Source of the DNA: Planctomycetes bacterium RIFCSPLOWO2_12_38_17
GTDB taxonomy: Bacteria > Planctomycetota > Brocadiia > Brocadiales > Brocadiaceae
DNA length: 35,926 bases
Reading direction: 5' to 3'
NCBI GenBank assembly: GCA_001830285.1
Contig: MHYY01000017.1
Location: forward strand, 1-35,926
Shown in pieces: positions 9,341-28,327 of the stretch (position 1 is its first letter; each line of letters opens with the position of its first letter). A program made the translations under genes and the position numbers. Under the pieces are notes generated by a model, which was not told where the DNA came from, ran no database searches, and saw only the letters and a program-made list of their open reading frames with translations.

Positions 9341-9946
9341 TCATAAATATTCTTTATTTTTTAAAACGGCGGTTATTGTTAAAGATAGAATTTTAAAATC
9401 AAAAAACAACGACCTCTTTTTTACATATTCAGTATCATATTTTATCCAATCACTAAATTTACCGCTTGATTTTCCCATTATTTGCCATAGACCTGTCACT
9501 CCTGGTTTTACTGAAAGTCTAGTTTCTTTCCACTCATTATTTCTTGTCATTTCATCGTTTGATAAAGGCCTAGGCCCTACAAGGCTCATTTCTCCTTTTA
9601 AAACATTAAATAATTGTGGTAATTCATCAAGACTCCATCTTCTTAAAAATCTTCCAATGGATGTAATTCTTGGATCGTTTTTCATTTTAAACATCGGTCC
9701 ATCAACATCGCTCTTGAGCTTTTTTTTAAGCGATTCTGCATCTTTTATCATAGTTCTAAATTTATACATTTTGAATTCCCTTCTATTCTTACCGCACCTC
9801 TTTTGTAAAAAGAAAACGGGGCCGCTGCTAGTTATTTTTATTAAGGTTGCGACAACCGAAAAGAAAGGAATGAAAATAACTAATAAAATGCTTCCTAAAA
9901 TAATATCAAATATTCTTTTCGGTAAATCTTGTTTAATGGATTCCAT
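9341..9946 (-). CDS. Initiating sugar-phosphate transferase (bacterial sugar transferase family)
   Basis: This 201-residue protein is the catalytic core of the polyprenyl-phosphate hexose-1-phosphate transferases (WcaJ/WbaP C-terminal half, PglC). It has one N-terminal membrane helix (about residues 12-36). The family motifs follow: KRCGKNRREFKMYKFRTM, the region with DPRITSIGRFLRRWSLDELP (the D-E pair sits in this type of motif), SLVGPRPL and KPGVTGLWQ. It would load the first sugar phosphate onto undecaprenyl phosphate at the cytoplasmic face, starting the glycan made by the plus-strand cluster. It lacks the N-terminal multi-helix domain of WcaJ. It is transcribed away from the cluster, and no clear ribosome binding site is visible. 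Confidence 0.93.
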   Translation of the reverse strand: MESIKQDLPKRIFDIILGSILLVIFIPFFSVVATLIKITSSGPVFFLQKRCGKNRREFKMYKFRTMIKDAESLKKKLKSDVDGPMFKMKNDPRITSIGRFLRRWSLDELPQLFNVLKGEMSLVGPRPLSNDEMTRNNEWKETRLSVKPGVTGLWQIMGKSSGKFSDWIKYDTEYVKKRSLFFDFKILSLTITAVLKNKEYL

Positions 9947-11639: not shown

Positions 11640-13079
11640 TTGACTGTAGAAAAACTAATAATAAAAAACACTGGATTTGTATTTATTTCTAGCATAGCAA
11701 ATAAGCTGTTTGCTGCTTTTTTCATTGCATATGCAGCCAGGGTCCTCGGACCCGGTGATTTCGGTTTATATGCATTTATAGGTACAATTGGATTTTTATT
11801 TTTTTCCTTTGCGAACTTTGGCATAGGACCAATGGCTGTAAGGGAAATATCCAGAGAAAAAGAAAAAGCAAAATTACTTTTTAATAACGTGCTTGCACTT
11901 AGGATAAGTATTGTTCTTCTTGCGTATCCGATCCTTATTCTGGTAGTTAATGTATTGGGATATAAAGATAATGTTAAACAATTAGTATATATAGTTGGAC
12001 TAACAGCAGTATTTTCAACGTTTTCAAATTCCTTCAAGATATTGTATATGGCTTATGAAAAGTTTAAAGTGCCTTCCCTTGTTTCTATTTTGGTATCTTT
12101 CCTGAGTAGTGTGTTTAACATTTTGGCGCTTTATTACGGTTATGGTCTAAAAGGGATTGTTATTATTTCTCTTATAGGCAATGTATTAGGCGCCGCTATT
12201 TCTGGTATTTGGCTGAGAAAGAAATTCTTTAAATACAAATTTTCGTTCAATCTGTCAGTTTGGAAAGATTTAACATTACAGTCCATACCCTATGCGGTAA
12301 TTTTATTTTTTCAGCAAACTAACAGATTCTTGAATATCTTACTTCTTTCAAGACTACCGGGTCCTTTACCTGGCGAACTCGCAATGGGTTATTATAACCC
12401 TCCTTCCTCGATAAATAAACTTACAATGATGCTACCTTATAGTTTAAAACAGGCAGCACTTCCTACTGTATCTGCTAATGTTGAGAATACTCAGTTAATT
12501 AAGGATATAATAAAAGGTTCAACAGAAAAATTACTTGTGTTGATTGTATTTCCATTGATTGTTGCTACTACTTTTTTCCCAACTGAAATTATCACTATCA
12601 TATTTGGTGAAGCGTACTTACCATCAGTTACAGCCTTTATTATTCTTGGTTGGGCTAGTGCACTTCAGGTATTTAATACGCCAGTTTCTATGACGCTTAC
12701 TGCGACTCGGGAGATAAAGAAATTTATTCCTTGGTCAATACTGATATTCTGTGTAAATCTTATTCTTGCTGTGCCGTTGATTATTTATTACAGTTTCCTC
12801 GGCGCTGCAATAGCGTTTCTGGTGTCAAAAGTCATTGAGACGTTTTTAAGGAATTATCTCCTTAAAACAGTGTGGGGTATAAGTAGATTAGGAATGATGG
12901 AATCTTTTAAGGTATTAATTCCGATGGCTATTATCTTTTTCATATTATTAATACTTCACCTATATTCTGTGAATAACATTATAATTTTGATACTAGCAAT
13001 AATGTCGTATCTTCTCTTTGTTTTTTCTATGAGGGGTTTTCGTAGAAAGATTTTAGAGATTCTAAGAAGGGACGGTTAA
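11640..13079 (+). CDS. Wzx-like oligosaccharide flippase (MATE/MOP superfamily)
   Basis: This 479-residue polytopic protein has about 12-14 hydrophobic helices. Its N-terminus (NTGFVFISSIANKLFAAFF, then YAARVLGPGDFGLYAFIGT) is characteristic of polysaccharide flippases. It would move a lipid-linked oligosaccharide across the inner membrane. I chose the TTG at 11640 because GAGGT lies 6 bases before it and the N-terminus matches the family. It opens the main glycan locus; the carrier protein gene follows after 126 bases. Charged residues inside helices, such as Arg34 in YAARVLG, are common in this family. Confidence 0.92.
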   Translation: MTVEKLIIKNTGFVFISSIANKLFAAFFIAYAARVLGPGDFGLYAFIGTIGFLFFSFANFGIGPMAVREISREKEKAKLLFNNVLALRISIVLLAYPILILVVNVLGYKDNVKQLVYIVGLTAVFSTFSNSFKILYMAYEKFKVPSLVSILVSFLSSVFNILALYYGYGLKGIVIISLIGNVLGAAISGIWLRKKFFKYKFSFNLSVWKDLTLQSIPYAVILFFQQTNRFLNILLLSRLPGPLPGELAMGYYNPPSSINKLTMMLPYSLKQAALPTVSANVENTQLIKDIIKGSTEKLLVLIVFPLIVATTFFPTEIITIIFGEAYLPSVTAFIILGWASALQVFNTPVSMTLTATREIKKFIPWSILIFCVNLILAVPLIIYYSFLGAAIAFLVSKVIETFLRNYLLKTVWGISRLGMMESFKVLIPMAIIFFILLILHLYSVNNIIILILAIMSYLLFVFSMRGFRRKILEILRRDG

Positions 13080-13205: not shown

Positions 13206-13451
13206 ATGAATGATTTAAATGATGTTGAACAACAGGTGAGAGATATAATAGCTGAACAGCTCCAAGTAGGTATTCAAAATATAAAAAAGAATTCTACAAT
13301 AGCTGAGCTTGGGGGAGATTCACTTAAAGCCCTTCAATTGTTGTCTATTTTCGAAACACATTTTAATATATCAATATCCGACGAGGATGCCGTAAAAATT
13401 AACTCTTTTAAAAATGCAGTAGAGGTCATAAAAAAGAATTTAAAAAAATGA
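13206..13451 (+). CDS. Acyl/peptidyl carrier protein
   Basis: The 81-residue, four-helix carrier protein has the phosphopantetheine attachment Ser39 in LGGDSLKALQL. The GGDS motif is closer to carrier domains of polyketide/nonribosomal systems than to the GADS of housekeeping fatty acid ACP. AGGAG lies 11 bases before the ATG. The last four bases overlap the ketosynthase start (ATGA), so the two are almost certainly partners. It would carry an acyl or amino-acyl group as a thioester in the cytoplasm. No phosphopantetheinyl transferase or adenylating enzyme is visible in the window, so loading must be done by genes elsewhere. Confidence 0.93.
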   Translation: MNDLNDVEQQVRDIIAEQLQVGIQNIKKNSTIAELGGDSLKALQLLSIFETHFNISISDEDAVKINSFKNAVEVIKKNLKK

Positions 13452-14668
13452 AAAGAAGGGTTGTTATTACTGGTATTGGTGTAGTTACATGTGTGGGCAC
13501 AAGTAAAGAGACATTCTGGGATGCCATTATTAAAGGTAAATCAGGCATAAAGAAAATTAGTTTTTTTGACCCAACAACATATAAAACGCAAATTGCAGGA
13601 GAAATAAGGGAATTTGACCCATTGCAGTTTATTGATATAAAAGAGGTAAGAGATATGGACAGGGTCAGTCACCTTACCATTGCGGCGACTGAGGAAGCTA
13701 TAAAAGATGCAGGTTTCAAACCAGATGAAAATGCAGGTATTATTATTGGAACGGGGATAGGTGGAATCACCTCTGATGACTTTCAGCATACCCTTCATGA
13801 TTTAAAAGGTCCAAGGTATGTACAACCAATGGCAATACCAACAATAATGTATAATGCGATTGCATGTAATGTTTCAAGAAGATATGGGTTAATGGGGCAT
13901 GGTTATACTGTTGCAACGGCTTGTACCTCTGGTGCGAATGCAATAGGAGAGGCATATAGATTGATAAAACATGGTTACGCTGATGTTATGGTTACTGGCG
14001 GCACGGAGGCTACTATTAGTCCTGGAATTTGGAGTGGATGGTGTGCGCTGAGAGTTTTATCTACAAAGAATGATGATCCAGAGGGCGCTTGCAGGCCGTT
14101 TAGTAAGGATAGAAGCGGTATGGTGATAAGTGAAGGCGCTGGTATTGTTATATTGGAAGAATTGGAACATGCTCTAAAAAGATCGTCAAATATATATGCT
14201 GAAGTGATTGGGTATGGTTCGTCTTACGATGCAAGGCATATTACAGCGCCAAATGTTTATGGTCAAATGCGTGCAATTTCAATTGCAATGAAAGATGCAA
14301 ATATTTCTCCAGATAAAGTTGATTATATAAAAGCACATGGTACTTCGACTATGTTGAATGATAAAATTGAAACGGAAACGATTAAAAAAGTGTTTGGCGA
14401 CAAGGCATATTCAATACCAGTAAGTTCTATAAAATCCATGATAGGGCACACTATCGGAGCATCCGGGGCTATCGAGCTTATAGCATGTTGCCTCTCACTT
14501 AGGGATAGTATTATTCCACCAACAATTAATTATACAGAACGCGACCCAGATTGCGACCTTGATTATGTGCCTAATGAAGCGAGAAAGGCAAGATTAAATG
14601 TTATTATGACTAACTCTTTTGGATTTGGCGGTATTAACGGGGTGCTTATTTTAAGAAGATGTGAGTAA
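13448..14668 (+). CDS. Beta-ketoacyl-ACP synthase (FabF-like)
   Basis: The 406-residue condensing enzyme of the thiolase fold has a complete Cys-His-His set: Cys159 in ATACTSGAN, His297 in KAHGTST and His334 in IGHTIGASG, with Lys329 also present. Its length and motifs match FabF/KAS II, which extends an acyl chain on a carrier protein with a malonyl unit. It is fused translationally to the carrier protein gene and sits between a flippase and a phosphodiesterase. A dedicated role in making an acyl group or lipid for the locus is therefore likelier than bulk fatty acid synthesis. No ketoreductase, dehydratase or acyltransferase gene accompanies it. Confidence 0.93.
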   Translation: MKRRVVITGIGVVTCVGTSKETFWDAIIKGKSGIKKISFFDPTTYKTQIAGEIREFDPLQFIDIKEVRDMDRVSHLTIAATEEAIKDAGFKPDENAGIIIGTGIGGITSDDFQHTLHDLKGPRYVQPMAIPTIMYNAIACNVSRRYGLMGHGYTVATACTSGANAIGEAYRLIKHGYADVMVTGGTEATISPGIWSGWCALRVLSTKNDDPEGACRPFSKDRSGMVISEGAGIVILEELEHALKRSSNIYAEVIGYGSSYDARHITAPNVYGQMRAISIAMKDANISPDKVDYIKAHGTSTMLNDKIETETIKKVFGDKAYSIPVSSIKSMIGHTIGASGAIELIACCLSLRDSIIPPTINYTERDPDCDLDYVPNEARKARLNVIMTNSFGFGGINGVLILRRCE

Positions 14669-14715: not shown

Positions 14716-16401
14716 ATGAAAAACAGAACAGTTATTCTAGGTATTGACGGGGCAACTTTTGATATTATCAATCCTCTTATAGAAAGAGGCGAATTGAAAA
14801 ACCTGAAAAGTTTAATTGATACTGGAACTAAAGGTTTTTTGAGGTCAACCATTCCATCATATACACCCGTTGCTATTTCCTCATTCCTTACCGGTATGAA
14901 TCCTGGTAAACATGGAATATTTGATTTTACAATAACAAATCACAATAATTATGAGACATTTAAAAACCTTGCTAATTCTTCGACTATTAAAGCGCCAACT
15001 ATATGGGAATTATTTGGAAAAACTGATAAAAAAATTATTAGTTTCCTTTTCCCTCTTTCGTATCCTCCACAGCCTGTAAACGGTATTATGGTGTCAAAGG
15101 TCAAGCCTGAAATAATGAAAACTAATCCGTTTACATACCCTGAGTCTTTAAAAAATGAACTTTTTGCGCACCTTGGCAACGTGGATTATTCGAGGATGCC
15201 GTTTAGCGCTGATGTTAGAATGAAATACAGGTCTAGTTCAAAAGACTTTTTTTCAAGAAGTCTGAGTAATCTTTATTATAAGTTTGAAAAAGAGAAAGAG
15301 GCCATTAGATATTTGATGAGTAAACACGAATGGGACCTTCTAATGCTTTATTTTAACAACACGGATTTAACTCAACATTGGTTTTGGAAATTTATGGATA
15401 AAAGTCATCCCTTATATGACTCAGGAAGGTCGGAATATTCGGAAGAGATTTTTAATATTTACAAGGCAATTGACGCCTTCATTGGCGAGCTTTTAAGTAA
15501 AATAGGGAATGACGTTAATTTGTTAATTTTTTCTGACCATGGATTTGGTCCCTTATATTATAAATTTCAATTGAATAATTGGTTGATGGATAAGGGATTA
15601 CTCGTTATTAAACCAGGGAAAAGAAAACGATTGACGGTTGCGAGAAGAAATCTTAAGGAAATTTCCAGACGTTTTGGGCTTGGAGAGCTTGTAAAAGTTT
15701 TACCAGGCAGAATTAAAGGTATTAGTTTTCCCGTACCAAGAATGACGAATATCCCATTAAGGGAAATTGTTGACTGGCAGAGAACAAGGGCATACGGGAC
15801 GCTTTTTGGTATAAATATCAACCTTAAAGGAAGAGACCCGATGGGTATAGTTGAAAAATCTGAGTGCGACGAACTGGTAAATTATATCAAAAATGAGCTT
15901 AAAACATTATCTTATACAGATAGAAATTGTATAATTGAAAATGTCTTCCAGAAGGAAGAATTATACAATGGGGAGTCATTGGATTATGCTACGGATATTT
16001 TATTCATTTTTAAAAATGAGTTTCCCTGTCAGGTATCTATAGACATTTCAGAGGATGGTGTATTTAAAAATACAGGCGATGAAGAGATGTTGAGCGGAAC
16101 GCATTTCTCGAGTATAAATGGTATTTTTGTGGCAAGTGGAAAGGATATTGAAAGAGGTAAGGTTATACATGGGGCGTCAATAATAGATATTCTTCCTACA
16201 GTATTGTACCTGATGGGACAACCGGTACCATCTAATATTGACGGAAAGGTTTTAAAAGATGCAATTACATCTGACTTTTTAAGTCAAAATCCCATGGAGT
16301 TTAGTGAAGGCGAACATGTAACCAGAAAAGAATTTGTTTTTACAAATGAGGAGAGAGAGGCTATACAGAAGGAACTGAAAGGGTTGGGATATTTAGAATG
16401 A
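14716..16401 (+). CDS. Alkaline-phosphatase-superfamily phosphodiesterase, copy 1
   Basis: The 561-residue protein belongs to the type I phosphodiesterase/nucleotide pyrophosphatase group. All expected two-metal residues are visible: Asp11 in GIDGATF, nucleophile Thr50 in PSYTPVA, Asp217 and His221 in TDLTQH, Asp274 and His275 in SDHG, and His463 in SGTHF. A helical insert with the WQRTRAY...NLKGRDP segment lies near residues 350-380, and the tail ends LKGLGYLE. There is no signal peptide or membrane helix, so it should be cytoplasmic, unlike many family members. It overlaps copy 2 by four bases (ATGA). The substrate may be a nucleotide sugar, a phosphodiester or a lipid-linked phosphate; none can be chosen from sequence. 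Confidence 0.88.
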   Translation: MKNRTVILGIDGATFDIINPLIERGELKNLKSLIDTGTKGFLRSTIPSYTPVAISSFLTGMNPGKHGIFDFTITNHNNYETFKNLANSSTIKAPTIWELFGKTDKKIISFLFPLSYPPQPVNGIMVSKVKPEIMKTNPFTYPESLKNELFAHLGNVDYSRMPFSADVRMKYRSSSKDFFSRSLSNLYYKFEKEKEAIRYLMSKHEWDLLMLYFNNTDLTQHWFWKFMDKSHPLYDSGRSEYSEEIFNIYKAIDAFIGELLSKIGNDVNLLIFSDHGFGPLYYKFQLNNWLMDKGLLVIKPGKRKRLTVARRNLKEISRRFGLGELVKVLPGRIKGISFPVPRMTNIPLREIVDWQRTRAYGTLFGININLKGRDPMGIVEKSECDELVNYIKNELKTLSYTDRNCIIENVFQKEELYNGESLDYATDILFIFKNEFPCQVSIDISEDGVFKNTGDEEMLSGTHFSSINGIFVASGKDIERGKVIHGASIIDILPTVLYLMGQPVPSNIDGKVLKDAITSDFLSQNPMEFSEGEHVTRKEFVFTNEEREAIQKELKGLGYLE

Positions 16402-18083
16402 AAAATAATAAAGTTGTAATAATAGGTTTGGATGGAGGTACTTTTAATGTAATCCACCCTATGATTGAAAAAGGCGAATTACCAAATTTAGCCTCAATTA
16501 TGAAAAACGGCTCCTGGAGTGAGTTAACTTCTACTATTCCACCAATAACATTGCCAGCTTGGGTTTCTTTCGCTACTGGAATGAATCCCGCAAAGCATGG
16601 GATTTACTACTTTTTGTCGGATACGCACAGGACTTATGATGAGGGACCTATTGTTAATTCTACTTATGTAAAGGCAAAGTCGCTATGGCAGATTCTTACT
16701 GAAAATGATAAGAAGTCCATAGTAGTAACAGTTCCATTTACATATCCGCCAATAGAAGTCAATGGCGTTATGGTTTCTAATATTAAGGCCGCACAGGTTG
16801 AGAAAATGAAGAGTTATCCACCTGCGGTAATAGGTGAATTAGTAGATATTTTAAAACTGAATGAACTTAGAATTGAAAATTTGAAGCAAATTATAGACAG
16901 TTCGAATAATGTTAATGATATTCCGTCAAGAATAGCGGCACTGCATAAAGTCGCTGTTGGGAAGATTGCAGATGGGACTATTTATTTGATGGATAAATAT
17001 AATTGGTCGTTTTTGATGACGGTCTTTCAGTCATCCGATGTGGTGCAGCATTATTTCTGGGCACACATGGATAAAAATCATCCAAACCACAAACCATCGG
17101 AAGCCGTGAAATACGGCAGTATAATTTTTGACACTTACAAAAGAATAGATACCGCTGTTGGAAAAATAGTAGAAAAGGCGGGGGAAGATGCAATTATTAT
17201 AATTATGTCTGACCATGGTGCTAGTGCCGTCCATAAATTCTTCTTTACTAACAGATGGTTATTGGAAAAGGGACTACTTGTGCTTAAAGAGGAGAAGCCT
17301 TTTAGAACTCTGATAAGGAAGACAGAACTCGAAAGGGTGTTGACTCGCCTTGGATTAAGAGACGTTCTTGTATTCTTCCCGAAAAAACTGAGGAATATAA
17401 AGGTGCCTTTTCTGAAAAGACAATTAAAGCCGTTGTCTGAGATTATTGACTGGAGCAAAACAAAGGCTTATGCGACCAATACTGGAATAAATATAAATTT
17501 GAATGGCAGAGAACCAAATGGAATAGTTAGCAAAGAAAAATATGATGAAACGATTAACTTTATAAAAGATGAGTTATCGAAACTAATAGATACTCAAACA
17601 GGAGAAAAGGTTACTGATAAGGTGTACAGGAGGGACGAGATATACCACGGTCCTTATTTGGAAGATGCTTATGATTTATACTTTACGCCGTGGAAATCGC
17701 TTTATCAACCGCAAAAGAGTTTACAGTCAAAAGATGTCGTAGCGTTTATACCGAACGAAGGCAGGTGCGTTAGTGGACATCATCATAACTGCGTGAATGG
17801 AATTTTTATGATCAAAGGTCCTGATATAAAGAGCGGCGTTAAGTTAGATAATCCAAAGATTATTGATATAATGCCAACAGTGCTTTATTTATTGGGTTTA
17901 AAAATTCCAGAAAATATAGATGGAAGGGTGTTGCGGGAAGTGATAAATGATAATTATCTTAGAGAAAATCCTGTCAATCTTACAACTACTACTGAGTATA
18001 GAGCGCAGCAAGTTGAAGCTATTTTGGGTGAGGAAGAAGAAGAATTAAGAAGACAATTAAAGAATCTTGGATACATCGAGTAA
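16398..18083 (+). CDS. Alkaline-phosphatase-superfamily phosphodiesterase, copy 2
   Basis: This is a 561-residue paralogue of the gene before it, identical in length and layout but clearly diverged in sequence. The metal and nucleophile residues are intact: Asp12, Thr51 in PPITLPAW, Asp214 and His218 in SDVVQH, and Asp272 and His273 in SDHG. The last histidine lies within a run of three (His461-463, SGHHHNC), His462 aligning with that of copy 1. The conserved WSKTKAY...NLNGREPNGIV segment and the LKNLGYIE tail are present. No signal peptide is seen. The ATGA overlap with copy 1 suggests equal expression of the pair, perhaps as a heteromer or for two related substrates. Confidence 0.88.
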   Translation: MKNNKVVIIGLDGGTFNVIHPMIEKGELPNLASIMKNGSWSELTSTIPPITLPAWVSFATGMNPAKHGIYYFLSDTHRTYDEGPIVNSTYVKAKSLWQILTENDKKSIVVTVPFTYPPIEVNGVMVSNIKAAQVEKMKSYPPAVIGELVDILKLNELRIENLKQIIDSSNNVNDIPSRIAALHKVAVGKIADGTIYLMDKYNWSFLMTVFQSSDVVQHYFWAHMDKNHPNHKPSEAVKYGSIIFDTYKRIDTAVGKIVEKAGEDAIIIIMSDHGASAVHKFFFTNRWLLEKGLLVLKEEKPFRTLIRKTELERVLTRLGLRDVLVFFPKKLRNIKVPFLKRQLKPLSEIIDWSKTKAYATNTGININLNGREPNGIVSKEKYDETINFIKDELSKLIDTQTGEKVTDKVYRRDEIYHGPYLEDAYDLYFTPWKSLYQPQKSLQSKDVVAFIPNEGRCVSGHHHNCVNGIFMIKGPDIKSGVKLDNPKIIDIMPTVLYLLGLKIPENIDGRVLREVINDNYLRENPVNLTTTTEYRAQQVEAILGEEEEELRRQLKNLGYIE

Positions 18084-18138
18084 TAACAAATATTATAAAG
18101 AATTATAAAACTGGCGAACATTTTTTGGATATATTGGG

Positions 18139-19677
18139 ATGATAGTTTGTAAGAAACGGTTTTTTACTGCAATCTTAATACTCGTTTTTTTAAATGTGTG
18201 TGTGTTATCATGCAAGAAGTTAAAAATATATTCAAAAAGAGAGGTACATTCTGAACAATTATCAAAGAAGAAAGAGGCGTTAAATTCACTCATAATACCT
18301 GCAAATGCGTTGTTCAAAACCCCATGGCCTATGTTTCAAGGGGATTTGCACCGAACAGGACGGAGTCCATTTGTTGGCCCGAAAAGAGGGATAATAAAAT
18401 GGAACTTTCCCATAGAGGGGCTTTTTGAGGCCTCGCCGGTAATAGGAGTTGATGGAGTAATTTATGCAGGAGGCGATAACTCAAGATTTTATGCTGTTTC
18501 TCCGGACGGTAGACTGCTCTGGATGTTTCAAACGCGGGATATTAACAGGAACTCTGTAGCCGTTGCCTCTGATGGTACGTTGTTTCTGCCTTCAGCAGAT
18601 CATTGTGTTTATGCCCTCACGCCAGATGGCATGGTTAAGTGGGTATTTACCACAGGAGGCAGGGTGAATTCCTCGCCTGCAATAGATGGCGATGGAATAA
18701 TCTATTTTGGTTCACACGATGAAAATCTTTACGCGGTCAATCCCTACGGCACTCTCAGGTGGAAATTTTCGGTTGGAGCGATCAGCGCTTCCTCACCTGC
18801 TATTTCCAATGACGGCACGATATATGTTGGTTCATATGACGGTAATCTTTACGCCGTTAATAAGACAGGGCAGTTAAAATGGAAGTTTAAAGCCGATAGC
18901 GGGCTGAGGGCATCTCCGTCTATTGGTGATGACGGTACAATATATATTGGTTCAAGAAAAGGTACTTTTTATGCTATGTCGCCCGAAGGTGTTTTAAGGT
19001 GGAGTTACGAAACAGGTAATGATATCAGGGCTTCTGCGGCGATTGCAAATGATGGAACTGTTTATATTGGTTCCTGGGATAATAATTTTTATGCATTTTC
19101 AGGTAGTGGCAAGATCAAATGGAGCTACAAGACAAATGGTCCAATTGAGGCATCTGCAGTGATTGATGCAGAGGGCAATGTATATGTGGGTGCAATAGGG
19201 GATAAAATATATTCTTTTACGCAAGACGGAACAGTAAGGTGGACAATCGTTGGTGGGATGATAAATACAGCGCCCGCCATAGACAGCGATGGCACAATAT
19301 ATATATGCAGGGAGCACAATCTCCTTGCTATTGGGGAGCCTAATCCGGTAATTGAAATTCGTACAACTAAAGAGAATACAAATTCAAACGTTATTAAAGA
19401 TGTAATGATTGTTAAGATTTCTAACGAGTCATTGTTTGATAAAGATGTTGATTTGAAGGTTTTTATAAGAGCCAATATGGGTATCATGATTCCGTTAGAG
19501 AGCGCAAGATTAGTAATTAAGGCGGGAACTTCAGAGGAAAAAAAATACGAAGTGCCGTTTAACAAACTAAACATGAAGAAGGGTAGTTATTTTGTAGTTG
19601 GAAGGCTTTTAGATGCACAGGTTGGAACACTATTAAGGGAGGAGTTCAAGGTATTTGAATTAAATGAACAAAAATAA
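18139..19677 (+). CDS. PQQ-like eight-bladed beta-propeller lipoprotein
   Basis: The 512-residue protein starts with a lipoprotein-type signal ending VLSC (Cys25). Next comes WPMFQGDLHRTGRSP, the usual lead into PQQ-like repeat domains. Eight repeats of about 40 residues follow (about 75-405), each with a W-F/Y strand, an ASPAI-like turn and DGTIYVGS. Eight copies would close an eight-bladed propeller like BamB or quinoprotein dehydrogenases. I see no quinoprotein catalytic signature, so it is more likely a binding or scaffold protein than an enzyme. A separate C-terminal domain (about 410-512) looks beta-rich. It lies between phosphodiesterase copies 2 and 3 and overlaps copy 3 by 14 bases. 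A periplasmic location is predicted. Confidence 0.87.
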   Translation: MIVCKKRFFTAILILVFLNVCVLSCKKLKIYSKREVHSEQLSKKKEALNSLIIPANALFKTPWPMFQGDLHRTGRSPFVGPKRGIIKWNFPIEGLFEASPVIGVDGVIYAGGDNSRFYAVSPDGRLLWMFQTRDINRNSVAVASDGTLFLPSADHCVYALTPDGMVKWVFTTGGRVNSSPAIDGDGIIYFGSHDENLYAVNPYGTLRWKFSVGAISASSPAISNDGTIYVGSYDGNLYAVNKTGQLKWKFKADSGLRASPSIGDDGTIYIGSRKGTFYAMSPEGVLRWSYETGNDIRASAAIANDGTVYIGSWDNNFYAFSGSGKIKWSYKTNGPIEASAVIDAEGNVYVGAIGDKIYSFTQDGTVRWTIVGGMINTAPAIDSDGTIYICREHNLLAIGEPNPVIEIRTTKENTNSNVIKDVMIVKISNESLFDKDVDLKVFIRANMGIMIPLESARLVIKAGTSEEKKYEVPFNKLNMKKGSYFVVGRLLDAQVGTLLREEFKVFELNEQK

Positions 19678-21331
19678 TACAAAAGTAATGGTAATAGGTT
19701 TGGACGGAGCTACCTTTGACATAATAAACCCGCTCGTTGACAAAGGAAGATTACCGACTTTTAAAATGATAATGGGAAATGGGGCATGGGGGGAGCTTCG
19801 TTCTACAGTCTTACCTGTTACACCGCCTGCATGGGCATCATTTATGACTGGGAAAAACCCAGGAAAACATGGCGCTTTTGGTTTCTATTCTTATAAAGAA
19901 GGTTCTTACGATACAGAGCTTGCTACAAGTTTAAATATAAAATCAAAGAAATTGTGGGATTATTTTGATTCAGCAAAAAAGATAGGTTTAATAGATATTC
20001 CTATGACATTTCCTCCTGAAAAAATAAATGGATATATGATTTCGGGGATGCCAGTTCCTTCTGAACAAAGCATCTTTACCAGTCCTCCAGAATTACATAC
20101 TGAAATTATTAAGGAGATAGGCGATTATACAATTGACAGAGACCTGATGTTGAGTACCAGGTGTAATCCTGTAGAAAGTCTTAAAAGATTATACAGCTAT
20201 ACTAAGATGAGAAAGGATGTTGCGGAGTACTTAATAAGGGAAAAAGGTCCGTTTGATTTTTTTATGGTGGTGTTCAGGACAACAGACTTTATTCAACATG
20301 CGGCATTTAAATTTCTGGATAACGACTATTCATCCACGCATATAGAAGAAACGAAAAAATATTGTGATGTTATTGCTCAGGTTTACGAAAGAATGGACCA
20401 GTATTTATCAGATTTATTAAAGATTGCCGGGGAAGATTGTATAATAATATTAATGTCCGATCACGGAGGCGGTCCTTTAAAGAAAAGATTCCACTTGAAC
20501 AGGTGGCTTAAAAAGAAGGGACTGCTTGTCTTGAAAAATGAGTCATCCAGAGGTATAAAGATAGAAAAGAAAAAAATATCAAGGATATTAGACAGGCTGA
20601 GGCTATCCCCTTTGAATAAATTCTTACCGTATAAGATAACTTCTGCCTGTATACCTGTTCTCGTACCTTATTTGAAACACCCCGTTGAGCAAGTTGATTG
20701 GGATAAGACGAAGGCGTATGCGAATCTCGTCTGGACTGACGGCGTCATAAGAATTAATCTGAAAGGCAGGGAACCGAATGGGATTGTGGATGAAAATCAG
20801 TATGATGAGTTGAAAACATACATTATAGGGGAGTTATTAAAGGCCACCGATCAGGAAACAGGCCAAAATGTAATAGAGTCCGCCTATAAAAGGGAGGATA
20901 TATATTCAGGCCCTTACGTGAAGGATGCGCCCGATATTCTCCTTATTACCCAAAATATGGAATATGCATTTACAGCTGCATTGACAGGCAATGAGCTTTT
21001 TGAAAAGCCAAATGATCCAACGCCAGCTAATCACAGAATGAATGGGATATTTATGATAACGGGTCCCAATATTAAGAAAGGACAAAAATTACCTGTAATG
21101 AATATTGTGGATATTGCTCCTACTATTCTTTATCTTGCAGAAAATGTAGTGCCTGATGATATGGATGGAAAGGTTATATCCGATGCAATTGAAAACGATT
21201 ACATTGAAAGCCACTCAATATCCTATTTGAAAGCCGATCAATTTAAAGCTCATAAGCCCATTGATATTCAATTTTCTGCTGAAGAAAGGCAAAAGATCGA
21301 AGAAGGGTTAAAAAATCTGGGCTATATGTAA
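19664..21331 (+). CDS. Alkaline-phosphatase-superfamily phosphodiesterase, copy 3
   Basis: The 555-residue paralogue has Asp14, nucleophile Thr53 in LPVTPPAW, Asp208 and His212 in TDFIQH, Asp266 and His267 in SDHG, and His457 in ANHRMNG, so catalysis should be possible. It shares the VDWDKTKAY...NLKGREPNGIV segment and the tail LKNLGYM with the other copies. It begins inside the propeller gene (14-base overlap) and is separated by three bases from the GT9 gene after it, so it is embedded in one transcript. No signal peptide is visible. Compared with copies 1 and 2 the histidine environment HAAF after Gln-His is different, which may reflect a different substrate. Confidence 0.88.
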   Translation: MNKNNTKVMVIGLDGATFDIINPLVDKGRLPTFKMIMGNGAWGELRSTVLPVTPPAWASFMTGKNPGKHGAFGFYSYKEGSYDTELATSLNIKSKKLWDYFDSAKKIGLIDIPMTFPPEKINGYMISGMPVPSEQSIFTSPPELHTEIIKEIGDYTIDRDLMLSTRCNPVESLKRLYSYTKMRKDVAEYLIREKGPFDFFMVVFRTTDFIQHAAFKFLDNDYSSTHIEETKKYCDVIAQVYERMDQYLSDLLKIAGEDCIIILMSDHGGGPLKKRFHLNRWLKKKGLLVLKNESSRGIKIEKKKISRILDRLRLSPLNKFLPYKITSACIPVLVPYLKHPVEQVDWDKTKAYANLVWTDGVIRINLKGREPNGIVDENQYDELKTYIIGELLKATDQETGQNVIESAYKREDIYSGPYVKDAPDILLITQNMEYAFTAALTGNELFEKPNDPTPANHRMNGIFMITGPNIKKGQKLPVMNIVDIAPTILYLAENVVPDDMDGKVISDAIENDYIESHSISYLKADQFKAHKPIDIQFSAEERQKIEEGLKNLGYM

Positions 21332-21334
21332 TAA

Positions 21335-22441
21335 ATGAGTGTATCAAATCAATTAAAACACGCCGGAAATATTTTATTTATAAATCACCTGCTTGCCATG
21401 GGAGACGCTATTTTCCTTTCCGCCGTGTTTAAGGTGATAAAGGACAATACCCCGCAAGTGAATATCACTGTGTTAACGAGAGGTTATGCAGTTGAATTCC
21501 TTAAATCAGTAAGGTCTGTAAACAAGGTGATTAATTTAGACGACTTTGGAATCGCAAGGAATTCTTCAAGATTTAAAAAATTGCTGGCTTTGGTAAGGAT
21601 TAGTTTCCTCATGAGAAGGTTCGACTTCATAATAATGAGGAATGATCCAAGAATACCTTTTACAAGGTTTTTTAGTATAGCAGCGAAGCTGATCGGGTGT
21701 AAGGGGATTGTCCTGATGGATAATTACCTTTCCATGTATGTTTCGGCTGATTCACACATACTTACTGTTTATCAGAAAATTTTACAGGATCTTGGATACG
21801 AAGTGCCTGAAAAGATGAAGTTCGATATAAGTGTTTCTGAACAAGGAAAAACATTTGCAGAGAAATATTTAGTAGAAAACGAGATAAAAAACGAAAGGAT
21901 TATTGGTGTATTTCCAGCGAGTACAATAAGAATAAAAAGTTTATTGCCCGGTGTATTAATTGATATTTTAAATGTTGATTTATTTGCAAAATTCAGAATT
22001 TTATTATTCAGTATGGATGACAAATTAAATGATGGCGTGTGTAAAGCCATTTCTAAAAAACCAATCGTAATTGGCAAATTGCATTTTGATGAACTTGTTG
22101 GATTGATTTCTAAATGTAACTTTGTTATAGCCGCCGATACAGGTCCTCTTCATATTGCTGTGGCGCTGGGAATACCATCAATAGGCATTTATGGACCTAC
22201 GTCTGGCATGGTGACAGGTCCTTACGGAGATATAGGCGTTGCGATACAGAGTCAAAACGATTGCAGATTTTACGACCCCATTGCGCCCTATTCACCGTCA
22301 CGGGCGCTTCAAGTGTGCTATATAAAGGACGAATGCCAGCTAAATATGAGGAGCTGTATTGATAATATATCTGCAAAAGACATATTGGATGTAATAAATG
22401 ATAAATTCAAACATATTTTAGTAAAAGATGAATATGAATAA
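21335..22441 (+). CDS. Glycosyltransferase family 9 (heptosyltransferase-like)
   Basis: The 368-residue GT-B protein has the family 9 N-terminal motif region LAMGDAIFLSAVFKVIK (acceptor side) and the C-terminal nucleotide-binding signature AADTGPLHIAVALGIPSIGIYGPT. It would transfer a heptose or other sugar from a nucleotide donor to the growing glycan at the inner face of the membrane. No ADP-heptose biosynthesis gene is in the window, so the donor is open. The gene starts 3 bases after copy 3 and overlaps copy 4 by 14 bases, placing it between the two phosphodiesterases. The cysteines near the C-terminus are not a known motif to me. Confidence 0.9.
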   Translation: MSVSNQLKHAGNILFINHLLAMGDAIFLSAVFKVIKDNTPQVNITVLTRGYAVEFLKSVRSVNKVINLDDFGIARNSSRFKKLLALVRISFLMRRFDFIIMRNDPRIPFTRFFSIAAKLIGCKGIVLMDNYLSMYVSADSHILTVYQKILQDLGYEVPEKMKFDISVSEQGKTFAEKYLVENEIKNERIIGVFPASTIRIKSLLPGVLIDILNVDLFAKFRILLFSMDDKLNDGVCKAISKKPIVIGKLHFDELVGLISKCNFVIAADTGPLHIAVALGIPSIGIYGPTSGMVTGPYGDIGVAIQSQNDCRFYDPIAPYSPSRALQVCYIKDECQLNMRSCIDNISAKDILDVINDKFKHILVKDEYE

Positions 22442-24092
22442 GAAGGTATTTGTAATTGGAATAGATTCAGCAACATTTGATATTATAAATCCATTAATAA
22501 AAAAGGGCGCACTTCCGAATCTTGAGTTGTTGATTAAAGAAGGTGTTTCGGGAAAACTCAAGTCTACAATCCCACCAGTAACTCCTCCTGCATGGACTTC
22601 ATTTATGACAGGGAAAAATCCGGGCAAACACGGTGTCTTTGATTTTTATGCGCCTCCTAATCTTGGATATCAGAGGCCTATCCTGAATTCAAAATTTAAC
22701 AAGGCAAAGACGATTTGGAAAATATTATCAGAGAATGGGAAGAAGGTTGGAATCATAAACATGCCAATGACCTATCCTCCCGAGGAGGTGAATGGATTTA
22801 TAATACCTGGTATGCAGTATGGGTTGGATACAAATAGCGGGTTTTCGTATCCAAAAGAATTAATGCATGAGTTAAATAAGGCAATCGGCGGTTACAAGGT
22901 TTTATACGGCGATATGGTTTCACTCTATGCGGATATTTTTGATAACCTGCTAAAAGAGTGGAGGGAAATAGTGAAATTAAGAGAGAAAGCAATTTTGTAT
23001 CTTATGGAGAGATATGAATGGGACTTCTTCATGGCAGTTTTCTATTCGATTGATGTGATGCAGCATCATTTCTGGAAATTTTACGACAAATCCCACCCGT
23101 TATATAAACATTCTGAATACTCTGAAATAATACCCGAGTTTTATAAATGTGTTGATTCCTCGGTGGGGGAAATATTAAGAAGATTGGACGAAGATACCGT
23201 TGTTATGGTTGTTTCAGATCATGGTGCTGGTCCGGAGCATAAGGCTTTTTACATTAATAAGTGGCTGGCAAAAGAAGGTTTTTTAACTTTTAAACCAAAA
23301 TATATCTCTTTATGGAAATTCAGACTTCCTCACATAATATATAAAATTTTGAGAAGGGCGGGCGTAAAAGCAATTGAATGGACAGTGCCAATATCGTATT
23401 TACCGTTACTCTGGAGAAAGATAGACCCAAGGGAAGGCTTGCGCGTGCACGAATTGATAAATTGGAATAAAACAAAAGCATATTCAGGTAATCATACGGA
23501 ACAGGGGATATATATTAATCTTAAGGGTAGAGAACCTTATGGAATAGTTGAGTCTGGGAAAGAATACGAGGAAATAAGGAACAGTATAATAGAGAAGTTG
23601 CGCAAGGTAGAAGATCCCAAAACGGGTGAAAGGGTTGTCAGCAAAATTTATAAAAAAGAGGAGATATATAACGGACCTTATACTTACCTTGCCCCTGATA
23701 TTTTTGTTGATATGAAAGAAGGACAATATCTCTTACAAAAAGAAGTATATAATTGGGGGTTATTTAATTATGCAGATAAGAGTTCCGGTACCCACAGAAT
23801 GGATGGGATATTTATAATGAAAGGTGCAAATGTAAAGCGTGGGGAGGGTGTTGATAATCTGAATATTACAGATATAGCGCCCACAATACTACATGTTTTG
23901 GGAGTTCCAGTTCCTGACGATATGGATGGAAAAGTATTGACTCAGTTATTTAAGGAGTCTTTTCAAGAAGCTAATCCTGTAAGGTATACAAAGATTATAA
24001 GTGAATATATGACTGATGATAAAGGTATCTATTCTGACGAAGAGGATGAAAAGATGAGAAAAATGTTGAGGGATTTAGGATATATGGGGTAA
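22428..24092 (+). CDS. Alkaline-phosphatase-superfamily phosphodiesterase, copy 4
   Basis: This 554-residue paralogue has Asp13, nucleophile Thr52 in PPVTPPAW, Asp209 and His213 in IDVMQH, Asp264 and His265 in SDHG, and His456 in SGTHRMDG. The glycine after the first metal ligand is Ser in this copy (GIDSATF), where the others have GIDG or GLDG. The insert WNKTKAY...NLKGREPYGIV and the tail LRDLGYMG are kept. An alternative start two codons in (22434) would shorten the overlap with the GT9 gene from 14 to 8 bases; I cannot decide between them. It is predicted cytoplasmic. The acetyltransferase-like gene follows after 11 bases. Confidence 0.88.
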   Translation: MNMNKKVFVIGIDSATFDIINPLIKKGALPNLELLIKEGVSGKLKSTIPPVTPPAWTSFMTGKNPGKHGVFDFYAPPNLGYQRPILNSKFNKAKTIWKILSENGKKVGIINMPMTYPPEEVNGFIIPGMQYGLDTNSGFSYPKELMHELNKAIGGYKVLYGDMVSLYADIFDNLLKEWREIVKLREKAILYLMERYEWDFFMAVFYSIDVMQHHFWKFYDKSHPLYKHSEYSEIIPEFYKCVDSSVGEILRRLDEDTVVMVVSDHGAGPEHKAFYINKWLAKEGFLTFKPKYISLWKFRLPHIIYKILRRAGVKAIEWTVPISYLPLLWRKIDPREGLRVHELINWNKTKAYSGNHTEQGIYINLKGREPYGIVESGKEYEEIRNSIIEKLRKVEDPKTGERVVSKIYKKEEIYNGPYTYLAPDIFVDMKEGQYLLQKEVYNWGLFNYADKSSGTHRMDGIFIMKGANVKRGEGVDNLNITDIAPTILHVLGVPVPDDMDGKVLTQLFKESFQEANPVRYTKIISEYMTDDKGIYSDEEDEKMRKMLRDLGYMG

Positions 24093-24103: not shown

Positions 24104-25213
24104 ATGACGGAACAGAGCACTTATACAGTAAGGAAATATAAAGACGGAGATGAAATAGAAATAAATCGTCTTTTCAATGAGATACTTTGTAAAGACAGGC
24201 ATAGAACGCTTGACGAATGGCGCTGGAAGATGAAAGAAAATCCAGCAAAAGTCAAAGATATTGCGAATTATATTACAGTTGTGGAAGCGGATGGAAAAGT
24301 CATAGGACAGTATGCGAACTGGCCAGTTGATTTTAAATATAAGGACGAAATTGTTAAAGTAGGCCATCCGATTGAAAATTTTATACATCCTGATTACAGA
24401 TTATCTTTCGATGTTCAGTTAGACATGTTCAACAGACAATACGAAGCAACATCCGAGGAAGATGTTAGTTTTGGATTCGGTTTCCCAAATCAAGTTGCTT
24501 ATCTGATTGGCAAGAGGTTCCTGGGTTATAAAGATATCGGTGAGTTAGCAACTTTATCCACAAGATTAAGTTTTTTATTTCCTGTAAAACGAAGGTTCCC
24601 ATTCCTGCCAAAGGTATTATTCAGCCTCATCCAGCAGATGAGTGAATATTTTTATAAGATTAAAATAAATTTAACAAAAAGGCAATCTGATATATCAGTA
24701 GAAGAAGTCGTAGAATTTAATAGCGAATACGATGAATTATGGAACAAAGTTAAGGACTATTACCCTCTCCTTGCTGTCAGGGACGGCGTTTATATGAATT
24801 GGCGTTACTTAAAAAAACCGACCAGGGAGTATAAAATCTTCTTTGCAAGGAAGGGGGCTGAAATAAAAGGATGTATAGTCCTGAAAATTATTGATGACTC
24901 CACATATTTCTGGGGTGCAAGGGTGGGGCTTATTATGGAGCTATTATGCCTCAAGGATGCAGGTATTCCTGTAGAGCTGCTAAAAACAGCTTTAAATTAT
25001 TTTGTATCCGGAGGTGTAGATTTTTCTGTTGCCGTGCTTTTAAAAGATGACATTTTACTAAATGGCTTTCTAAATGCCGGGTTTGCGATAAGTGACAATA
25101 TATATAAGCACCGCATGGTTTACAAAATTTATGACGAAAAGGGAATAGACGAAAATGTGCTTAAAGATTCAAGAAACTGGCATGTAATGTTTGGAGATTT
25201 TGATCCTCTATGA
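24104..25213 (+). CDS. GNAT-like acetyltransferase
   Basis: This is a 369-residue cytoplasmic protein. The first 140 residues carry GNAT-like features: a start of the type TVRKYKDGDEIEINRLFNE, a beta strand VVEADGKVIGQYANWP and the HPDYR segment where acetyl-CoA binds, followed by GFGFPNQVAYLIGKRFLGY. The second half (about 200-369) looks like another GNAT-type fold, so the protein may be a two-domain member. In glycan loci such proteins acylate amino sugars, and that is the likely but unproven role here. Its start is 11 bases after copy 4, and its stop overlaps the GT4 start (ATGA). Confidence 0.7.
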   Translation: MTEQSTYTVRKYKDGDEIEINRLFNEILCKDRHRTLDEWRWKMKENPAKVKDIANYITVVEADGKVIGQYANWPVDFKYKDEIVKVGHPIENFIHPDYRLSFDVQLDMFNRQYEATSEEDVSFGFGFPNQVAYLIGKRFLGYKDIGELATLSTRLSFLFPVKRRFPFLPKVLFSLIQQMSEYFYKIKINLTKRQSDISVEEVVEFNSEYDELWNKVKDYYPLLAVRDGVYMNWRYLKKPTREYKIFFARKGAEIKGCIVLKIIDDSTYFWGARVGLIMELLCLKDAGIPVELLKTALNYFVSGGVDFSVAVLLKDDILLNGFLNAGFAISDNIYKHRMVYKIYDEKGIDENVLKDSRNWHVMFGDFDPL

Positions 25214-26427
25214 GGATATTGCAAGTTCATGACCATTATTTGCCGTGGGGTGGGGCTGAGGTTTACTTCACCGATATTATTAATTCCCTTGAGGAAAGAG
25301 GACTTGAGATTGCCGTTCTATATTCGGCCATGAAGGATAATGGGTATAAAAGTAGTAGGAGAAAAGAGTATTTTATTCCGCCATCACCCGGTCTTTTACG
25401 GGGTTTATCCCTGATAAAAGAGGTTAGGAAAATAGTAGACGAGGTCAATCCTGATATAATTCATATACACGGTTTTCATGGTTATACTAGTCCTTTAGTT
25501 ATAAGGGAAATGATAAGGATGCGGCCGACTATACATACAGCGCATGATATTATGGCGTTTTGCTTAAACCGCAAAAAGATATATAATCCGGAGGATAATA
25601 TCTGCAAGAGACCTGTCGGCTGGGGTTGTTTGACTTCCGGATGTATAGGGTTCTCTGAAAAGGGTAGTATTATATCAACTTTAAAAAATATAATAATTCA
25701 AAATACTGAGATGCGGCAATATAGAAAACTCATAAAGATTATCGTTGCGAGTAAATATATGAGGGATGAATTAGTCAGGAACGGAGTCTCAATAGAAAAT
25801 ATAGAGATACTTTATTATTATTTAAACGTAGAAAACGATTGGTTTGATTGGAGAGAAAAAGAAGAGAAAAGCAATATTATTCTTTATGTTGGTAGGATTG
25901 AAAAGAATAAAGGAGTGGGGGAATTAATTGATATTTTAAGTTTAATACAAGATATTCAGTGGCGGGCGAAAATTATTGGTTATGGTAGTTATGAATGCGA
26001 GGCAAGGAAGAAGATTGATGCTGTTGGGCTCTCAAGTAAAATAGATTTGGTTGGACATATACAGCATAGCAATTTATCGCAATATTATAATGAAGCAGCC
26101 GTGGTTGTTGTGCCATCCATATATCCTGAGCCTTTTGGTCTTATAGGAATTGAAGCAATGTATTTTGGAAAGCCTGTTGTCTCCTTTGATGTCGGCGGTA
26201 TAAGTGAATGGTTGAAAGATGGAGAAAACGGTTTTCTTGTAAAATTTCCTGATAAAAAACAATTTGCAGAAAGAATTAAACTTCTTTTAGAGGATAGTTC
26301 TTTAGCAGAGAAATTTGGTAGAAACGGAAAAGAAATGGTAAAACGTTTTATAAATAAGGATGAGCATGTTGATAGATTATTAAAAATATATAATAACGTT
26401 ATAGAAGAATGGAAGTATAGAAAGTAG
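25210..26427 (+). CDS. Glycosyltransferase family 4
   Basis: This 405-residue GT-B retaining transferase begins with the acceptor-domain motif HDHYLPWGGAEVYFTDII and has the family 4 donor site: VGRIEKNKGVGELI, then PSIYPEPFGLIGIEAMYFGKPVV with the E-x7-E arrangement, and DVGGISEWLKDGENGFLV. It should add one sugar from a nucleotide donor to the lipid-linked glycan. It is coupled to the GNAT-like gene by a four-base overlap and is followed by a 130-base gap, so a transcript boundary may lie after it. Confidence 0.92.
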   Translation: MRILQVHDHYLPWGGAEVYFTDIINSLEERGLEIAVLYSAMKDNGYKSSRRKEYFIPPSPGLLRGLSLIKEVRKIVDEVNPDIIHIHGFHGYTSPLVIREMIRMRPTIHTAHDIMAFCLNRKKIYNPEDNICKRPVGWGCLTSGCIGFSEKGSIISTLKNIIIQNTEMRQYRKLIKIIVASKYMRDELVRNGVSIENIEILYYYLNVENDWFDWREKEEKSNIILYVGRIEKNKGVGELIDILSLIQDIQWRAKIIGYGSYECEARKKIDAVGLSSKIDLVGHIQHSNLSQYYNEAAVVVVPSIYPEPFGLIGIEAMYFGKPVVSFDVGGISEWLKDGENGFLVKFPDKKQFAERIKLLLEDSSLAEKFGRNGKEMVKRFINKDEHVDRLLKIYNNVIEEWKYRK

Positions 26428-26557: not shown

Positions 26558-28327
26558 ATGGGAAAACAGATACGCAGCAGGGAATATGTTTTTGTAATTT
26601 TATCGTATATATTTTTAACAAGCCTTTTTACTTATCCGATGATTTTCGAAATAAATGTTCCTTACAACTTTAATAAGAAGGATTATTTATTTAATATTTG
26701 GAACCTTTGGTGGGTAAAAGAGGCACTTTTAAAACATATGATTATGCCCTATAAGACGGATTACATATTTTACCCTGTAGGCACTACCATGGCCTTTCAC
26801 ACAATGAATATGTATAACTACATAATTTCCTTACCGATACAATTATTTACATCAAGAACCGCAGCATACAACATTCTTTTTCTGCATACCTTCATTCTCA
26901 GTGCCTTCGGTTGTTACCTGTTGGTGCGTTATTTAACAAAGAACAGGATGGGTGCTTTTATAGGCGGGATAATATTTGCATTCTCAATATTTCACCAGGA
27001 GGAGTATGCAAGAATTAACGTAGCAACTATTCAATGGATACCATTATTTTGCCTTTTTTTTATAAAATTAATAAAAGATGGCGGCTTTAAGAATTGTTTC
27101 CTCTCCGCGATATTCCTCTCACTGATAGCCATTTCCTTCTGGGAATATTTTATTTTTACATTTTTTATAATTATTATTTTTTTGATTTATTACTACAAAA
27201 GCACATGGAAAACAGATTTTATAAAGATGTTCTTCGTTATGCTATGTATTAGTGCAATATTAGTAACGCCATTCATATACCCTTTAATTAAAGAATTATT
27301 ACATCGGGGAGAATACCTCTATGCGCCTTTATCATCCTATACACAGCTTCTGGGCTTAATGCCCTCAAAGGAATTTGGGCTTTATTCTTGGCCAACAGTG
27401 CTGGGTTATACAGTGTTAACATTATGTATTTATTTCGTATTTAAATTGAGGAGAGAAGATACCTGTGTTTGGCTCATAGCGACATGCGTATTCTTTGTTT
27501 TTGCCCTGGGACCGCATCTTATTATATTTAATAAGGATTTCCGCGAGATTCCATTACCATTTGCAATCTTAAAAAATATTCCTGTTGTCCAGGTAATAAG
27601 AACGCCGCACAGGTTTCTTTCTTTTGTTACACTAGGTACGGCTGTAATGGTTGGATTTGTAATTTCAGAGACAGTTATGAAGAAGAATTACAAGTTTGTA
27701 GTATTTCTTATAATTGGTTTAGTGATATTGGAATATCTTGCGATACCAAGGACTACCTTTTCTCAAATTAAAATTCCTGATATATACAAAAAGATTGCTA
27801 ACGATAAGGAGGATTATGTTGTAGTGGACGCCCCACTTAATGATTTTGGCGGCGCATACTCAATGTATTACCAGACGATACATGGGAAGAAAGTAGTAGG
27901 CGGTTATGTCGCAAGAACACCTTTATACTCCAAATATTTTATAGAAAACAATCCAGTCCTACACCTTCTTGCTGAGCCTGGTAATTATTATACAATCAAT
28001 CTTACAGAAAAAGAGATAAGCGAATCGTTAGACAATCTGAAGAAAAATGGAATAAAATATGTAATTGTCCATAAAAATCTCATGGTAAAAAGGAGTTTCC
28101 AAAAAGTAAAAGAAAGTCAAAGAAATATTATTTCCGATATGTTTTTCCCTTATTCTGTAAACAAGCATAGAATAGAAGTGTGGCGGGGGGAGTCGGAGAG
28201 GGGCGATTATCAAAAGGTCTTTATGGACGGATCGGGATTTAATGATTTTATTACGTTCCTCAACAAAATCCTGTCAAACCCGGTATCCGAAGATGAAGTG
28301 GTTGTCGTATATGAAATCAGAAAATAA
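26558..28327 (+). CDS. Polytopic membrane protein, GT-C-like glycosyltransferase candidate
   Basis: This 589-residue protein has about ten hydrophobic helices spread over residues 10-405, then a soluble C-terminal domain (about 410-589) predicted to face the periplasm. The first loop, with NIWNLWWVKEALL, TDYIFYPVG and AFHT, resembles a family of uncharacterised membrane proteins often listed as GT-C type. GT-C enzymes use polyprenyl-phosphate sugars and act at the outer face of the membrane. An O-antigen polymerase (Wzy) role cannot be excluded, since no other polymerase candidate is in the window. AGAGGAG occurs about 17 bases before the start. A 130-base gap precedes it and a 121-base gap follows. 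Confidence 0.72.
   Translation: MGKQIRSREYVFVILSYIFLTSLFTYPMIFEINVPYNFNKKDYLFNIWNLWWVKEALLKHMIMPYKTDYIFYPVGTTMAFHTMNMYNYIISLPIQLFTSRTAAYNILFLHTFILSAFGCYLLVRYLTKNRMGAFIGGIIFAFSIFHQEEYARINVATIQWIPLFCLFFIKLIKDGGFKNCFLSAIFLSLIAISFWEYFIFTFFIIIIFLIYYYKSTWKTDFIKMFFVMLCISAILVTPFIYPLIKELLHRGEYLYAPLSSYTQLLGLMPSKEFGLYSWPTVLGYTVLTLCIYFVFKLRREDTCVWLIATCVFFVFALGPHLIIFNKDFREIPLPFAILKNIPVVQVIRTPHRFLSFVTLGTAVMVGFVISETVMKKNYKFVVFLIIGLVILEYLAIPRTTFSQIKIPDIYKKIANDKEDYVVVDAPLNDFGGAYSMYYQTIHGKKVVGGYVARTPLYSKYFIENNPVLHLLAEPGNYYTINLTEKEISESLDNLKKNGIKYVIVHKNLMVKRSFQKVKESQRNIISDMFFPYSVNKHRIEVWRGESERGDYQKVFMDGSGFNDFITFLNKILSNPVSEDEVVVVYEIRK

Follow-up and report, generated by a model that had tools for sequence, protein, structure and literature searches.

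Among the enzymes of the alkaline phosphatase (AlkP) superfamily, the known transferases are membrane proteins whose catalytic domain lies outside the cytoplasm, iPGM and phosphopentomutase work within it, and the NPP/ENPP enzymes (Xac NPP; Protein Data Bank (PDB) 2GSN, 7N1S) and the phosphonoacetate hydrolase PhnA (PDB 1EI6, 3SZY) are represented by solved structures. Here we describe four paralogous AlkP-superfamily genes, A1 to A4, in a conserved Wzx-dependent surface-glycan cluster of Planctomycetes bacterium RIFCSPLOWO2_12_38_17, a member of the Brocadiaceae whose genome assembly is 2.1 Mb and 85% complete. The window, the whole stretch of 35,926 nucleotides that was analysed, represents 36 kb of the 42.7-kb contig MHYY01000017.1. 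The paralogues are old and apparently active, as judged from their sequences, and we give an even chance to the proposal that each of them cleaves phosphoesters of glycan precursors at a step of its own, at the inner face of the membrane, through a Thr phospho-enzyme. A search of the literature for AlkP arrays in glycan loci found no description of one, and EboF, likened to A1-A4 by description and not by sequence, is the nearest and sole functional precedent found. EboF is a PF01663 enzyme that is essential in the ebo cluster, which is proposed to carry a metabolite to the periplasm via a lipid carrier (PMC5133447, PMC6282210). The likeness lies in a PF01663 enzyme encoded in a cluster proposed to use a lipid-carrier route; the ebo cluster, however, has a single PF01663 copy and no glycosyltransferase array.

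Four intact paralogues, predicted to be cytoplasmic

The four genes are as follows.

A1, 14716..16401, plus strand: predicted AlkP-superfamily phosphoesterase, 561 aa; solitary long branch, sister to A2 and its orthologues; orthologue not found in the set examined
A2, 16398..18083, plus strand: predicted AlkP-superfamily phosphoesterase, 561 aa; orthologues in BMS3Abin06 (61% identity) and JdFR-81
A3, 19664..21331, plus strand: predicted AlkP-superfamily phosphoesterase, 555 aa; co-occurs with the glycosyltransferase gene GT9a
A4, 22428..24092, plus strand: predicted AlkP-superfamily phosphoesterase, 554 aa; BMS3Abin06 protein 75% identical; AlphaFold2 model with NPP-like fold

All four proteins, which share 36-40% pairwise identity, match PF01663 (Type I phosphodiesterase/nucleotide pyrophosphatase) with E values of 6e-34 to 4e-46 (118-159 bits against a cut-off of 23). 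Each retains the complete ligand set of the superfamily (Asp, Asp/His, Asp/His and His, plus a Thr/Ser nucleophile), as D11/T50/D217/H221/D274/H275/H463 in A1, D12/T51/D214/H218/D272/H273/H462 in A2, D14/T53/D208/H212/D266/H267/H457 in A3 and D13/T52/D209/H213/D264/H265/H456 in A4. The set is also complete in 150 of 153 homologues, where the nucleophile is Thr (107) or Ser (46), and of the 51 columns with a conservation of at least 90% across 149 homologues, A1-A4 each keep 48-51. Signal peptides and transmembrane segments are both absent, every 19-residue Kyte-Doolittle mean being below 1.6 (the signal of the propeller lipoprotein encoded within the array reaches 2.3). An initial annotation, made from the letters of the window, had described four open reading frames (ORFs) with the full metal set, a Thr nucleophile and no signal peptide, with ATGA or 14-base overlaps and interleaved with the lipoprotein and a GT9 gene. 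All of this is borne out, and its coordinates are exact; there are one 4-base (ATGA) and two 14-base overlaps, and the lipobox of the lipoprotein reads LSC. The annotation also stated that family members which decorate glycans usually sit in the membrane or are exported. This is true of other enzymes of the superfamily with that function but not of the subfamily of A1-A4, in which 142 of the 153 homologues lack a transmembrane-like stretch by the same crude hydropathy measure. This subfamily is probably of the COG3379 type (predicted phosphohydrolase/phosphomutase, AlkP superfamily). The genome contains five PF01663 matches, of which four lie inside 9.4 kb of 2.1 Mb, a clustering beyond random placement.

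Several other functional classes do not fit the sequences. The sulfatase formylglycine motif C/S-x-P-x-R is absent, the nucleophile position in A1-A4 reading T-[PL]-[VP]-A, and there is no N-terminal transmembrane anchor of the type found in the lipid-headgroup phosphotransferases EptA, LtaS and PIG-N, as no hydrophobic stretch exceeds 1.6. An anti-phage role was dropped, since PADLOC gave no match to PglZ or other anti-phage AlkP proteins at E 0.001.

The modelling proposed in the initial annotation, carried out on A4 as the single copy modelled, returned an alkaline phosphatase fold (predicted local distance difference test 90, predicted TM-score 0.91) with 373 PDB matches at E <= 0.001. NPPs lead these matches, the first being Xac NPP (E 1.7e-16, TM-score 0.67 by target length); a Foldseek search of viral models gave nothing useful. 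The likeness to NPP/ENPP enzymes extends to the core fold, both metal sites and the Thr nucleophile, but the window proteins carry two large extra insertions, lack a signal peptide and have Phe in place of the Asn that contacts a phosphoryl oxygen in NPP and PhnA, 21 residues past the Thr. This Phe is present in 149 of the 153 homologues. PhnA, the nearest solved relative by sequence (E 2.5e-12, 67-row profile), has an identical motif layout; its similarity, however, is mostly confined to residues 10-111, it shares the Asn that is replaced here, and no phosphonate genes were seen in the window cluster. The subfamily is thus NPP-like by fold, yet not NPP by the phosphate-contact Asn, and because of this replacement the terms 'phosphodiesterase' and 'nucleotide-sugar hydrolase' remain inferences.

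The fold search ranked NPPs, PhnA and PafA/SPAP and contained no transferase among the 50 PDB matches listed. This bears on a possible transferase role, in which a phospho-group such as phosphoethanolamine or phosphoglycerol would be taken from a phospholipid or CDP donor and placed by each paralogue on a different sugar of a lipid-linked glycan at the inner face, as a soluble counterpart of PIG-N/PIG-O/PIG-G or EptA/LtaS. Such decoration would suit old paralogues that vary in number per glycan cluster (1-4 in close relatives, up to 6 elsewhere), the company of GT4, PIG-L and acyltransferase genes, as in glycosylphosphatidylinositol (GPI) assembly, and the use of either Thr or Ser as nucleophile across the homologues. 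It sits poorly with proteins devoid of transmembrane segments, given the membrane location of the superfamily's known transferases, and we regard it as unlikely. The GPI ethanolamine-phosphate transferases PIG-N, PIG-O and PIG-G offer an analogy, in that several PF01663-type paralogues serve one glycan pathway alongside a PIG-A-like GT4 and PIG-L; these proteins, however, are polytopic with a lumenal catalytic domain, whereas those of the window are soluble. It is improbable, although conceivable, that the cluster specifies a bacterial GPI-like pathway, in which a GT4-built amino-sugar glycolipid would be deacetylated by PIG-L and re-acylated by a myristoyltransferase-like tandem GNAT with a chain from dedicated acyl carrier protein (ACP)/ketoacyl synthase (KS) or polyketide synthase (PKS) genes, three to four soluble AlkP paralogues would attach phospho-groups to individual sugars or take them off, and Wzx would then flip the product. 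If true, this pathway would include the first soluble cytoplasmic glycan phosphotransferases of the AlkP superfamily.

Age of the paralogues and conservation of the cluster

In a tree of 95 proteins A2, A3 and A4 each belong to a clade of their own; these clades comprise 8, 6 and 12 rows and have Shimodaira-Hasegawa-like approximate likelihood ratio test values of 97, 100 and 99, respectively. Brocadiaceae and Nitrospirota members are present in each; the A2 clade spans Planctomycetota and Nitrospirota, and the A3 and A4 clades have deltaproteobacterial members as well. The closest orthologues of all three, at 61% (A2), 69% (A3) and 75% (A4) identity, are in Bacterium BMS3Abin06. Seven columns distinguish the three clades when 80% identity within a clade is required, the figure for shuffled labels being 0.02, and three of the seven (12, 14 and 15) adjoin metal ligand D13; only two columns are diagnostic at the strict 100% level. 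Because the clades are separate and old, recent tandem duplication with decay, named in the initial annotation as an outcome that would overturn it, is excluded for copies 2-4. On the proposed check of whether each copy forms its own clade, these three do, and A1 is the long lone branch adjoining the A2 clade. For A1, which is intact, only the complete ligands speak for a separate role. It could be argued that the copies are redundant or regulatory, without separate roles, as A1 is so isolated and copy number differs between close relatives. The retention of all catalytic residues, the persistence of distinct A2, A3 and A4 clades across phyla and the linkage of A3 to GT9a make this highly improbable. 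The earlier claim of distinct substrates instead of redundancy is thus sustained insofar as the paralogues are old, separately kept and apparently active, although retention does not strictly prove four substrates and A1 lacks an orthologue in the set examined.

Gene order is common to the window, BMS3Abin06, Nitrospirae JdFR-81, a deltaproteobacterium, a putative Brocadia and a putative Loosdrechtia. Wzx is followed by an array of one to four AlkP genes, into which genes for a propeller lipoprotein and a GT9 are set (A2-propeller-A3-GT9-A4). Next come PIG-L, which the window and BMS3Abin06 lack, the tandem GNAT, several GT4 genes and an amine-oxidase-like gene, and the order ends with one more GT4 and a GT9. 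In nearly all relatives PIG-L adjoins A4 or A2. Every one of the five loci that carry GT9a has a member of the A3 clade, as against none of the eight uncut loci that lack GT9a (p ~0.0008, a figure weakened by kinship among the eight). The presence of A3 beside a GT9 gene could also mean that the paralogues are sugar-phosphate phosphatases or phosphomutases that help to make nucleotide-sugar donors, such as ADP-heptose-like ones for the GT9 enzymes or donors of other unusual sugars, and iPGM and phosphopentomutase set a cytoplasmic precedent within the superfamily. The fold, however, is nearest to NPP and not to the mutases, and in two array-bearing relatives an rfaE-like kinase gene has a gene of the histidinol-phosphatase/GmhB type some 2 kb away, so that the heptose phosphatase slot is filled in those two. 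A role in preparing donors is thus distinctly unlikely, and an AlkP protein standing in as heptose-bisphosphate phosphatase was rejected because the relatives hold their own candidate. The rfaE-like gene of the window genome lies at a contig end.

The glycan cluster (11640-35789) is closest to that of BMS3Abin06, as with A4, though a flanking gene (3265-4866) shares 82-91% identity with its counterparts in most genomes of the same family that were compared, which also rules out a misbinned contig. BMS3Abin06 is unclassified at NCBI, and a close relative is titled Nitrospirae. Taken together, the sequence comparisons indicate that the cluster has probably moved between phyla by horizontal transfer. 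The anammox marker hydrazine synthase alpha has no match in the genome, and none in a Brocadia metagenome-assembled genome either, making the result uninformative; no 16S rRNA is present in the assembly. The flanking ORF, together with 4894-5967, forms a single formate-dehydrogenase-like gene of 900 aa (window 3265-5967, minus strand) with an in-frame TGA at the catalytic residue (RT-U-HAPTVAGL), the frame being continuous if this is read as selenocysteine; same-family genomes have a corresponding open frame of 540-542 aa.

Beyond these relatives the family is widespread, with at least 527 relatives, in bacteria and archaea, confirmed in one scan. A long-form match at E 1e-100 is present in 17 of the 148 Planctomycetota genomes sampled. 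Two or more copies lie within 10 kb in 35 of 78 loci, and six in two, in a sample biased toward query-like sequences; a set of four stands at the high end of an arrangement that recurs. On TA06, Acidobacteriota and Chloroflexota contigs (L011, L058, L027, L016) the arrays comprise four to six paralogues. The 117 genes neighbouring homologues elsewhere, nearly all outside the conserved cluster, include 16 GT4, 13 GT2, 9 UPF0104 and 6 Wzx genes, and relatives on haloarchaeal plasmids lie beside GNAT or FemAB-like genes, within a glycan locus in the first of two examined. The association with glycan genes claimed initially is therefore supported by synteny across phyla and by these neighbours. 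Homologues lacking such company, the second outcome named as damaging, do exist: the genome's fifth PF01663 copy (contig C176; L085 2371-3699; 442 aa) is surrounded by cytochrome, ferredoxin-type, radical SAM and old-yellow-enzyme-type genes, short forms like it are found in nearly all relatives, and the neighbours of one A3-clade member (L049) are unmatched by the window's own glycan genes, which is partly against the association.

Cluster genes and the likely product

The other annotated genes in and beside the window cluster are listed below.

9341..9946, minus strand: Bac_transf, initiating sugar-phosphate transferase
10385..11188, plus strand: Wza/OPX polysaccharide export protein
11640..13079, plus strand: Wzx-type flippase
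13206..13451, plus strand: ACP (PP-binding, DSL motif)
13448..14668, plus strand: beta-ketoacyl synthase, FabF-like, Cys-His-His retained
18139..19677, plus strand: PQQ-type beta-propeller lipoprotein (lipobox ...VLSC), conserved array companion
21335..22441, plus strand: GT9a, glycosyltransferase family 9 (heptosyltransferase-like)
24104..25213, plus strand: predicted tandem-GNAT N-acyltransferase, predicted fold closest to N-myristoyltransferases
25210..26427, plus strand: GT4 glycosyltransferase
26558..28327, plus strand: polytopic membrane protein, 589 aa, without a Pfam/NCBIfam match; candidate GT-C-like transferase or polymerase
28449..29741, plus strand: GT4 glycosyltransferase, kept across cluster relatives
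29738..31081, plus strand: FAD amine-oxidase-like protein, kept across cluster relatives
31091..32224, plus strand: radical SAM/SPASM protein
32228..33433, plus strand: GT4-like glycosyltransferase
33452..34612, plus strand: GT9b glycosyltransferase
34605..35789, plus strand: GT2 glycosyltransferase

The initiating transferase, Wza/OPX, Wzx and many glycosyltransferases, together with Wzz in one relative (L131), resemble Wzx-type exopolysaccharide and capsule clusters; the difference is that here one to four AlkP paralogues, PIG-L, a tandem GNAT and acyl-chain genes are interleaved. Stand-alone ACP and KS genes, which overlap by 4 bases and end 47 bases upstream of A1, sit between flippase and array in the window, and ACP-KS precedes the flippase in relatives. 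BMS3Abin06 (L006) has KR-ACP-KS, L131 combines ACP-KS with Wzz and an acyltransferase of the lipid A type, and the putative Loosdrechtia (L008) has two 1,350-aa PKS-like proteins (KR, DH, ACP; KS, AT, PPTase). In Brocadiaceae relatives such multidomain genes immediately precede the flippase (L008 3-8064, L117 15881-18469). Because acyl-chain genes (ACP, KS, KR or PKS-like) adjoin the cluster, the surface glycan that it specifies is probably acylated. The likeness of the predicted GNAT fold to N-myristoyltransferases is suggestive only, as the PDB contains a great many of these and the scores of other tandem GNATs are almost as good. A mycothiol-like logic (GT4, phosphatase, PIG-L, GNAT) was set aside, as the cluster holds nothing supporting a thiol product. 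PF00884-type proteins in or beside the relatives' arrays (L007 8715-9998, L007 38-1312, L119 13400-14761) lack the formylglycine motif and may be further phosphoesterases.

The adjacent ACP/KS genes, the NPP-like fold and the proximity of PIG-L to A4 or A2 might also reflect a lipid-A-like route, in which PIG-L deacetylation and GNAT N-acylation with acyl-ACP are followed by LpxH-like cleavage of an NDP-acyl-aminosugar by an NDP-sugar pyrophosphatase. This would account for one paralogue and not four, the Asn of NPP is missing, and neither the window nor L006 has PIG-L; we consider it very unlikely. Among the candidate roles put forward initially, a multi-subunit enzyme, nucleotide-sugar hydrolysis and lipid-linked transfer are not directly supported.

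Proposed step-specific cleavage and its significance

According to the cleavage proposal, A1-A4 would be cytoplasmic two-metal phosphoesterases working at the inner face, with a separate step for each on a glycan precursor that bears phosphate, be it nucleotide-, phosphosugar- or polyprenyl-linked. Attack of the Thr on phosphorus would form the phospho-enzyme, from which the group would be released, more probably to water than to another sugar. The step of A3 is probably that of GT9a, and A4 probably serves an amino-sugar branch in which PIG-L would deacetylate and the tandem GNAT would add an acyl group supplied by the ACP/KS genes. Activity, substrates, hydrolysis over transfer, the assignment of steps and acylation of the glycan are what we infer. 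It should be emphasized, however, that several points weigh against this proposal. So many soluble cytoplasmic hydrolases would be unusual for precursor trimming; PIG-L is absent from the window cluster and from that of BMS3Abin06; and the Phe in place of the NPP/PhnA Asn means that NPP chemistry cannot be transferred to these proteins. Shorter relatives, including the genome's fifth copy, lie outside glycan loci, no known substrate for any member of the subfamily was found in the literature, and, while A2-A4 look constrained, synonymous divergence (dS) is saturated, so that a ratio of non-synonymous to synonymous divergence (dN/dS) could not be given.

This study gives a widespread family a narrow, testable context, in which one paralogue is tied to one glycosyltransferase and another to a deacetylase and an acyltransferase. 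The cluster is also found in Nitrospirota and in anammox-family bacteria, and it is the extracellular matrix of the latter that holds wastewater-plant granules together.

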